From positions 2,976,001 through 3,040,000 of the forward strand of contig NZ_CP098740.1 in assembly GCF_026167665.1 (NCBI RefSeq): DNA of 64,000 nucleotides, written 5' to 3'. A program made the position numbers and the translations under genes. Positions 53,012-55,135 of this stretch are shown piece after piece; positions within the stretch are counted from its first letter, which is position 1; each line of letters begins with the position of its first letter. Under the pieces are notes generated by a model, which worked only from the letters and a program-made list of their open reading frames with translations, made no database searches and was not told the origin of the DNA. Origin of the DNA: Streptomyces drozdowiczii. Its GTDB lineage: Bacteria > Actinomycetota > Actinomycetes > Streptomycetales > Streptomycetaceae.

Positions 53012-53041
53012 TTGCCCGGGCCCGCGGGCGGTTCCTAAGGT
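53012..53041 (+). promoter_or_regulatory. Possible promoter of the small mRNA
   Basis: TTGCCC at 53012-53017 and TAAGGT at 53036-53041 are separated by 18 bases and fit a Streptomyces housekeeping promoter. A start near 53047 would leave a leader of only about 8 bases before the AAAGGAGG sequence. Confidence 0.45.
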
Positions 53042-53073
53042 GGCTGTACACGCGAAAGGAGGTGATCCGAAAA

Positions 53074-53112
53074 GTGCAGTCTTATCGGATTCGTGAGGTG
53101 GCTGCGGGCTGA
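53074..53112 (+). CDS. Leader-like peptide MQSYRIREVAAG
   Basis: A 12-codon frame from GTG 53074 to TGA 53112, or 16 codons from GTG 53062 (inside the ribosome binding site). AAAGGAGG ends 11 bases before GTG 53074. The stop lies inside the first of two alternative hairpins, the layout of translation-coupled attenuators. The sequence also resembles the first residues of MerR regulators (YRIxEVAA), so it might be a gene relic. Too short to judge by composition. Confidence 0.4.
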   Translation: MQSYRIREVAAG

Positions 53113-53174
53113 CAGCCCGTCGTCGCACTTCGTGCACCTCGGCGGGCTGTCCGCCGAAACCCAAGCAGTCACCG

Positions 53175-53246
53175 ACCCGCAGGCTCGCCGGTAGATCCGG
53201 CCGGCTCCTCCGCAAGGAGGGACCAGAGCCTGCGGGTTCTGCTTTT
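53175..53246 (+). terminator. Long-loop terminator with T-run
   Basis: Perfect 12-bp stem ACCCGCAGGCTC (53175-53186)/GAGCCTGCGGGT (53226-53237) followed by TTTT at 53243-53246. The 39-base loop contains a second hairpin CCTCC-GCAA-GGAGG with a GNRA loop; its CCTCC could also pair with the upstream AAGGAGG. It also lies just beyond the pdxH stop on the other strand. Confidence 0.7.
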
Positions 53247-53272
53247 CCCGGACCCGTACGCCCGGTACGGCT

Positions 53273-54031: not shown

Positions 54032-55135
54032 ATGTCCGACTTCGTACCCGGACTCGAAGGAGTCGTCGCGTTCGAGACGGAAATCGCCGAACCCGACAAG
54101 GAAGGCGGTTCGCTCCGGTACCGGGGCGTCGACATCGAGGAACTGGTCGGTCACGTCTCCTTCGGGCATGTGTGGGGGCTGCTGGTGGACGGGGCGTTCG
54201 AGCCCGGTCTGCCGCCCGCCGAACCGTTTCCGCTCCCGGTGCACTCCGGGGACGTCCGGGTCGACGTGCAGGCCGCGCTGGCGATGCTCGCCCCGGTCTG
54301 GGGGCTGAAACCGCTGCTCGACATCGACGCGGAGACCGCCCGCGAGAACCTGGCGCGGGCCGCCGTGATGGCGCTGTCGTACGTGGCCCAGTCGGCGCGC
54401 GGACAGGGTGTGCCGATGGTCCCGCAGCGGGAGATCGACAAGGCGGAGTCCGTCGTGGAGCGGTTCATGATCCGCTGGCGCGGCGAGCCGGACCCGCGCC
54501 ATGTGAAGGCCGTCGACGCGTACTGGACGTCCGCCGCCGAGCACGGCATGAACGCGTCCACCTTCACCGCCCGGGTCATCGCCTCGACCGGCGCCGACGT
54601 GGCGGCCGCGCTGTCCGGCGCGGTGGGCGCCATGTCGGGCCCGCTGCACGGCGGCGCCCCGTCCCGGGTCCTCGGCATGATCGAGGAGATCGAGCGGACC
54701 GGGGACGCCACGGCCTACGTGAAGAAGGCGCTGGACAAGGGCGAGCGGCTGATGGGCTTCGGCCACCGCGTCTACCGCGCCGAGGACCCGCGCGCCCGTG
54801 TCCTGCGGCGCACCGCCGAGGAGCTGGGTGCACCCCGGTACGAGGTGGCGCGGGCGCTGGAGAAGGCGGCGCTGGAGGAGCTGCACGCGCGGCGCCCGGA
54901 CCGGGTGCTCGCGACGAACGTGGAGTTCTGGGCGGCGATCATGCTGGACTTCGCCGAGGTACCGGCGCCCATGTTCACGTCGATGTTCACCTGCGCCCGT
55001 ACGGCGGGCTGGTCGGCGCACATCCTGGAGCAGAAGCGGACGGGCCGCCTGGTGCGCCCGTCGGCGCGTTACGTGGGCCCGGGCGCGCGGAGCCCGCGCG
55101 AGGTCGCGGGGTACGCGGAGCTGAACACGCTGTAA
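54032..55135 (+). CDS. Citrate synthase 2 (type I-like short form)
   Basis: A 367-residue citrate synthase family enzyme condensing acetyl-CoA (or a related acyl-CoA) with oxaloacetate. Catalytic segments: [12 protein letters not shown] (His), [15 protein letters not shown] (His) and [10 protein letters not shown] (Asp). It is the citrate synthase-like paralogue that lies next to pdxH in Streptomyces rather than the main CitA; 2-methylcitrate activity cannot be excluded. ATG 54032 follows GAGGGAG. Confidence 0.88.

Follow-up and report, generated by a model that had tools for sequence, protein, structure and literature searches.

An Ms_IGR-5 RNA of Streptomyces drozdowiczii with a short conserved frame as a candidate stand-alone mini-mRNA

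What does an RNA do that is laid out like an attenuator and has no gene to attenuate? This question is raised by a short plus-strand unit of Streptomyces drozdowiczii, found in the 64,000-nucleotide stretch of DNA analysed here (the window), where the original prediction had placed a leader-like frame, a strong ribosome site, competing stems and a terminator. Here we establish the identity of the RNA, compare it across Actinomycetota, and weigh the functions that it might have.

Identity and genomic setting of the RNA

The RNA at 53048-53245 on the plus strand is a known actinobacterial sRNA family, Ms_IGR-5. It matched the Rfam model RF02471 over its full length (1-184 of 184) with 89.6 bits, 44.6 bits above the gathering cut-off of 45, and this was the sole Rfam match over cut-off in the 64-kb window. 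Because of this match the RNA itself is not new, and the novelty claimed for it in the original prediction falls away. Its fold had a z-score of -6.45 against shuffles.

Ms_IGR-5 is widespread. At E 0.001 or better the RNA was detected in 148 of 150 genomes sampled from Streptomyces; the two genomes without a match (G008 and G139) are assemblies of about 740 and 1010 contigs, so absence from them is not established. The Rfam model found the RNA in 249 of 394 genomes of the class (247 over cut-off), and a 65-nt model of its 5' part, built from 48 of 73 candidate sequences, gave the same total of 249 of 394. A phylum sample of 296 genomes yielded the RNA in 57 (26 over cut-off), 38 of them outside the class. 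The comparison set comprised 161 loci, one being the window's own. Three were dropped from most counts, namely L117 (a weak second match without ribosome site), L118 (at a contig end) and L119, a Streptomyces member (genome G145) in which the 5' end and the ribosome site are degenerate and the start and stop are retained. An N filter removed one further sequence, leaving 157 of the 161 loci for alignment and covariation counts; pairing with the 16S tail was counted in 158 members. For frame counts, 159 of the 161 loci were anchored on GAGGTG and gave 145 distinct 5' regions. A second set held 38 previously unused loci from other families of the phylum, of which 37 were scored, L317 being omitted for want of an exact GGAGGTG.

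The RNA is flanked by a PAS-domain gene and by pdxH. These two genes are both encoded on the minus strand, not divergently as had been predicted, and pdxH is convergent to the RNA. The next plus-strand gene encodes citrate synthase and starts at 54032, 780 nt away, in agreement with the predicted gap of about 780 bases. Analysis of the flanks in other genomes revealed pdxH and citrate synthase near the RNA in several groups, and genes for a heme-binding barrel protein, a GcvT-like protein, an aminotransferase IV or a Fur family protein in others. At two loci (L070 and L056) pdxH precedes the RNA on the same strand and the two do not face each other, as if the RNA had been inverted in place.

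The promoter-like boxes of the original prediction are present at 53012-53041 on the plus strand, with TTGCCC (53012-53017) and TAAGGT (53036-53041) separated by 18 nt, and they are conserved. In a count over 195 members that took in the outlying families, 173 have a TANNNT whose first base lies 12-13 nt upstream of the RNA start, and 146 have a TTG 35-37 nt upstream. At the 3' end a terminator-like hairpin spans 53174-53239 of the same strand (arms at about 53174-53186 and 53227-53239), as indicated by the fold and by covariation of pair 136-183. The predicted terminator was thus found as a hairpin; its T-run is weak. Simple promoter and terminator scans of the window reported no site of either kind here. 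As a whole, the data support the idea of a stand-alone unit.

The ribosome site and the short frame

The RNA carries an extended Shine-Dalgarno sequence, GAAAGGAGGTGATCC, at 53054-53068 on the plus strand, which forms 15 contiguous pairs with the 3' tail of 16S rRNA. The mature 16S tail ends at UCU. A comparison of duplex energies over 112,419 20-nt windows containing GG, on both strands, ranked this site lowest at -29.9 kcal/mol, with the runner-up at -22.8 kcal/mol, and the very strong Shine-Dalgarno sequence that had been predicted is indeed exceptional. The sequence AAGGAGGTGATCC occurs seven times in the genome, once at the Ms_IGR-5 locus and otherwise antisense to the 3' ends of six 16S genes. 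Near-complete pairing is shared across the family: 143 of 158 members pair over 15-16 contiguous nt (G-U allowed), the lengths of contiguous pairing with the 16-nt tail being 16 nt in 125, 15 in 18, 14 in 2, 12 in 10 and 11 in 3. The Shine-Dalgarno core was mostly paired in 129 of 157 predicted minimum-energy folds.

Behind this site lies the predicted 12-codon frame, GTG...TGA (MQSYRIREVAAG), at 53074-53112 on the plus strand. Its boundaries are fixed. Of the 145 distinct sequences, 144 have a start codon precisely 21 nt upstream of the anchor (ATG in 74, TTG in 43 and GTG in 27; the exception has ATT), compared with at most 7 start-like codons at any other offset within 3 nt. Larger numbers occur further off, with 55 at -17, and 85 at -33 and 28 at -32, where the GTG of the ribosome site lies. 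A stop codon follows 15 nt past the anchor in 143 of 145 (TAG 120, TGA 15, TAA 8), and in one of the two exceptions it is the next codon. The spacing from GGAGG to the start was 10 nt in 28 sequences, 11 in 85, 12 in 30 and 13 in 1, with one outlier of 78 nt that is most likely L119. Since this spacing varies and the distance from start to anchor is a constant 21 nt, the length changes are located before the start.

The encoded peptide showed a different pattern. The 145 distinct regions encode 114 distinct peptides, and 14 of 63 one-base differences in codons 2-4 were synonymous, a fraction of 0.222 compared with an expected 0.200, so these codons look neutral. The peptide conservation proposed as a check in relatives was accordingly not found. 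This comparison of sequences suggests that the start, the open frame and the stop are kept by selection and that the amino acids of codons 2-4 are not; ribosome loading and passage, rather than a peptide, therefore appear to be the function. Of the predicted translated frame, it is the start, the reading frame and the stop that hold up, and not the peptide.

The outlying families gave a less regular picture at the start. In the second set no locus (0/37) had a start at the fixed place of the first set. The stop at +15 was present in 35 of 37 loci, and in none of the 37 did an in-frame stop precede the anchor. An in-frame upstream ATG, GTG or TTG was present in 18 of 37, compared with 10 and 12 for the other two frames; when CTG, ATT, ATC and ATA were added, the count rose to 34 of 37, compared with 19 and 24. 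Where a start is visible, it adds one to three codons to the frame. The start position in these families is less certain. At two loci, L322 and L325, a shorter RNA places a TTG start and a TAG stop in another common frame. Several loci (L296, L303, L304, L307, L308, L314 and 6 of 13 loci of family f49) have ATT, ATC or CTG as their sole in-frame start-like codon. Such starts recall genes controlled by initiation factor 3, and in the outlying families they could be sensitive to initiation factors.

Helices that share bases with the frame

Pairing was assessed with a structure-blind alignment of 157 members, which was adopted because a complementarity search for one strand of the helix P2 hit wrong places in several rows. 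The four top scores of a structure-blind scan fell on terminator and P1a pairs (136-183, the highest, then 3-47, 5-45 and 133-186), and pair 44-147 ranked ninth. We also used a tree test in which independent evolution was simulated on a tree derived from the RNA itself minus the tested columns. As a yardstick, six terminator pairs were reached in 58, 547, 241, 3, 578 and 2 of 1000 simulations and slid controls in 412-802; since the yardstick pairs range from 2 to 578, the test is weak for single pairs. The clearest covariation was observed for three elements, namely the helices P1a and P2 and a pseudoknot with the terminator loop, several pairs of which were often reached by simulations. Compensatory stem changes in relatives, the other check that had been proposed, were thus found, and the earlier reading of a fold built partly from bases of the frame is supported.

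P1a joins CACG at 53049-53052 to CGTG at 53092-53095 on the plus strand (2-5 with 45-48) and covaries, with A-T, G-C, T-A and C-G all seen at one pair. A separate tool applied to 48 sequences found 98.4% of cells paired compared with 79.2% in shuffles, 30 double-change cells compared with 5.1, and a covariation score of 0.506 compared with 0.142 in shuffles and at most 0.071 in slid controls. Two of the five measures did not exceed shuffles (double-change pairs, 3 versus 2.5; further pair types, 7 versus 5.9). In the tree test pairs 3-47, 4-46 and 5-45 were reached in 0, 54 and 152 of 1000 simulations.

P2 is a long-range helix between GGTGGCTGC at 53097-53105, within codons 8-11, and GCAGTCACC at 53165-53173, which directly precedes the terminator on the same plus strand. 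Each of its nine pairs is canonical in 145-157 of 157 members. The tree test gave 226, 161, 16 and 10 of 1000 for pairs 54-122, 56-120, 57-119 and 58-118, and 130 for a fifth pair. P2 was present in the predicted minimum-energy fold of 41 of 74 Streptomyces members, 29 of 31 members of family f4 and 45 of 52 other members. Just before its 3' strand stands a GAANNCC-like stretch (GAAACCC at 53156-53162 in the window) that recurs, by eye, in many members.

The pseudoknot pairs GGATT at 53087-53091 (codons 5-6) with GATCC at 53194-53198 in the terminator loop, both on the plus strand. In general form GGAC-N of codons 5-6 pairs with N-GTCC of the loop, the GG and the loop CC being invariant in 157 of 157 aligned members. 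The variable pair 44-147 was canonical in 119 of 156 (G-C 63, T-A 34, A-T 16 and six G-T or T-G), compared with a mean of 72.6 and a maximum of 92 in 5000 shuffles; when one row was kept per genus and state, 40 of 64 were canonical compared with a shuffle mean of 26.5 and a maximum of 39. Column 147 is the best partner of column 44 among 112 variable columns (z 8.6), and relatedness contributes to this signal, since the next-best column already reaches 6.3. Pairs 44-147, 43-148 and 39-152 were reached in 3, 115 and 268 of 1000 tree simulations.

A competing hairpin, P1b, would form between GGAC or GGAU in the frame and GGUCC or GAUCC in the ribosome site. Its five pairs were reached in 658, 857, 631, 436 and 293 of 1000 simulations, giving no covariation support in this test. 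P1b is mostly invariant, and as a conserved hairpin it is not supported. At four loci of the second set, from two families (L291, L292, L302 and L305), the frame strand reads CGACC or CGATC and the terminator region GGTCG, with the ribosome site still GGTCC, and this joint change favours the pseudoknot over P1b. The second set as a whole gives weak support for the pseudoknot, because swapped strands match nearly as well: a full five-pair partner was present in 32 of 38 loci, compared with a mean of 26.4 and a maximum of 33 when strands were swapped between families.

The original prediction had described two mutually exclusive pairings around the stop codon, and both are possible in the window. 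CGGGCT at 53105-53110 can form a local hairpin with AGCCCG at 53114-53119, and the latter can instead join a longer helix with CGGGCTGT at 53143-53150 (all on the plus strand); pairs 65-103 and 66-102 of this helix are kept in many members. The minimum-energy fold of the window contains the longer helix, not the local hairpin. In Streptomyces members the pairs of the local hairpin (58-62 with 68-72) are canonical in 69/72 to 73/74, whereas outside this genus conservation is largely limited to the inner pairs 61-69 and 62-68. The outer pairs of the longer helix (63-105 to 66-102) are kept in 25-31 of 31 members of f4, compared with 66/74, 20/74, 59/74 and 63/73 in Streptomyces and 49/52, 21/52, 42/52 and 34/49 in other families. 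Its inner pairs with AGCCCG are uneven in Streptomyces (13/51 to 65/69) and present in at most 8 of 31 in f4, except for one pair with two letters. The two alternative pairings are thus only partly conserved, and of the longer helix the part next to the stop codon (63-66 with 102-105) is retained in some measure in addition to P2.

The structure line of RF02471 lacks P1a, P2 and the pseudoknot, which the present analysis adds together with the frame. In the Rfam consensus the ribosome site has codons 10-11 as its partner, and the 3' strand of P2 is unpaired. In the window this Rfam 5' helix forms 5 of 6 pairs, with one non-standard pair marked, and its 3' bases are also the partners of 118-122 in P2, for which support is mixed.

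Known systems, competing explanations and a proposed role

Some known systems resemble Ms_IGR-5 in part. In trp or erm leaders the choice between RNA folds depends on the ribosome that occupies a short frame; unlike these, Ms_IGR-5 has no downstream gene, and its function, if any, would lie in trans. CC2171 (RF01867) shares with Ms_IGR-5 GAAAGGAGGUGAUCC at the 5' end and a short frame behind it, and the window scored 16.7 bits against this model, below its cut-off of 75. A scan of named genomes for CGAAAGGAGGTGATCCB returned at least 119 stretches, of which 80 were read. Among these 80 matches listed, 10 were Ms_IGR-5-like, 63 had a start codon right after the site and 7 were neither; most of the 63 direct-start loci among the matches listed are alphaproteobacterial by title. 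At L174, L187, L210, L215, L231 and others of L172-L251, the site GAAAGGAGGTGATCC is followed by ATG or GTG at once. Again among the matches listed, 45 of the 63 frames begin M-S-H-G, all 43 with enough sequence read ATGTCTCATGGT, with codons 1-4 identical including third positions and a variable 3' half (43/43), and 40 of the 63 comprise 18 codons. When ten scan loci, seven of them alphaproteobacterial, were compared with Rfam, one of those seven (L231) passed the CC2171 cut-off. The neighbours of the alphaproteobacterial-type loci vary; a similar downstream gene, an aminotransferase by eye, was found in 12 of 67 examined, and some of these loci may therefore be leaders. The CC2171 and alphaproteobacterial frames differ from Ms_IGR-5 in that the start directly follows the site and most are 18 codons long, and any shared fold or common descent of the two sets would be hypothetical.

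One report (PMC10117765) describes rnTrpL of Sinorhizobium as a dual-function attenuator sRNA. It is like Ms_IGR-5 in being a small RNA with a short frame that also acts as RNA, translation of Ms_IGR-5 being suggested by comparison; it differs in being a leaderless trp attenuator, whereas Ms_IGR-5 has a near-maximal ribosome site and lacks a gene to attenuate. For the translated frame of a dual-function sRNA, the comparative data speak in favour.

Could the RNA nonetheless attenuate a gene in cis? The layout resembles a leader peptide with competing stems and a terminator, and the nearest predicted downstream gene was on the same strand in 8 of 76 Streptomyces loci and 34 of 84 loci elsewhere. 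That gene was on the opposite strand in 61 and 41 of these loci, respectively (none was found at 7 and 9), in predictions made by a codon-composition rule on flanks that for many Streptomyces loci span only 500 bases, and it varies between families. No regulated downstream gene on the same strand was found, and since the gene neighbourhood differs between families, a cis-controlled gene is unlikely. Cis attenuation was rejected on this ground, and we give it hardly any probability.

The remaining explanations act in trans or through the peptide. The conserved frame would suit a 12-residue peptide as the product, and E and V stand at codons 8-9 in 145 of 145 sequences, an invariance that arises by construction because those codons are the anchor by which the frame was located. 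The apparent neutrality of codons 2-4, the diversity of the peptides, the position of the better-kept codons within P1a, P2 and the pseudoknot, and the use of another frame by two outlying members all argue against it; codons 2-4 together with L322 and L325 make a peptide function very unlikely. An ordinary trans-acting antisense sRNA whose frame is incidental would be consistent with the Rfam class (sRNA) and the very stable fold, yet the first base of the start varies while its T is invariant and its G is present in 144 of 145, all at one fixed place. Interchangeable stops and frame-keeping length changes are also hard to explain without translation, and such an sRNA seems improbable. A decoy for the 30S subunit would occupy 16S tails in trans and lower Shine-Dalgarno relative to leaderless initiation, with the frame setting the hold time; Actinomycetota also use many leaderless mRNAs. 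The strongest site of the window, the 15-16-nt tail pairing in 143 of 158 members and the conserved promoter-like boxes are what a decoy would have, whereas the start, frame and stop would be needless for a pure decoy, which leaves this explanation with a minor share of the probability.

On comparative grounds, we consider it probable that Ms_IGR-5 is a stand-alone, structured mini-mRNA whose function is ribosome loading and passage and whose fold is opened by the translating ribosome. The RNA would capture a 30S subunit through its near-complete complement to the 16S 3' tail, and initiation would occur at the codon 10-13 nt downstream of GGAGG, the position indicated by comparison. In the folded RNA most of the remaining frame would lie in three consecutive, covariation-supported helices (the pseudoknot, P1a and P2). 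Because their strands follow one another at 40-44, 45-48 and 50-58, most of the frame would be helical and the site and start would lie in a loop closed by P1a. A ribosome reading the 12 codons would open all three helices and halt beside the next hairpin. P1b would hide the ribosome site in the free RNA and would be mutually exclusive with 16S pairing, so that ribosome binding would free its frame strand for the pseudoknot. We think that the RNA may thereby report or buffer ribosome availability in trans. Several results count against this reading. Outside the class no more than 18 of 37 loci have an ATG, GTG or TTG start in the expected frame, and in the second set swapped pseudoknot strands match nearly as well as native ones. 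Several pairs of P1a, P2 and the pseudoknot are often reached in the tree test, P2 is predicted in the minimum-energy fold of just 41 of 74 Streptomyces members, and in 129 of 157 such folds the Shine-Dalgarno core is mostly paired.

In the published record as far as available, Ms_IGR-5 is transcribed in S. lividans (PMC8079986, Table 2), is among 139 sRNA units of S. avermitilis (PMC8780764) and overlaps ncMSMEG15794c in M. smegmatis (PMC10454040). Ribosome reads on the RNA are reported for M. abscessus and M. smegmatis in a paper that itself cautions that such reads occur on many non-coding RNAs (PMC4974804). A literature search on the name and its synonyms, with the sRNA studies of M. smegmatis (2013) and S. 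coelicolor (2011) outside its scope, found in the accessible texts no frame, pseudoknot or function for Ms_IGR-5, and a term search of PMC11077062 gave no match. As far as searched, the mini-mRNA reading looks to be absent from print. Within the same search, three further points are absent: the 15-16-nt pairing of the ribosome site with the 16S tail; the covariation-backed 5' helix, long-range in-frame helix and pseudoknot between frame and terminator loop; and the variable gene neighbours, hence no cis attenuator.

A broader reading is offered tentatively, as possible rather than likely. Actinomycetota would have a phylum-wide RNA made for ribosome loading that captures 30S subunits by the whole tail, in which binding and passage switch between a site-hiding hairpin and the pseudoknot and the free fold reports ribosome supply; Alphaproteobacteria perhaps hold a second, independent set. 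If loading is the function, Ms_IGR-5 would serve many genomes as a sensor or buffer of ribosome supply that stands alone, and RNAs of this kind can be recognised by a frame that is conserved while its peptide is not. The comparative evidence makes RF02471, an sRNA without a stated function in the sources, a testable object.
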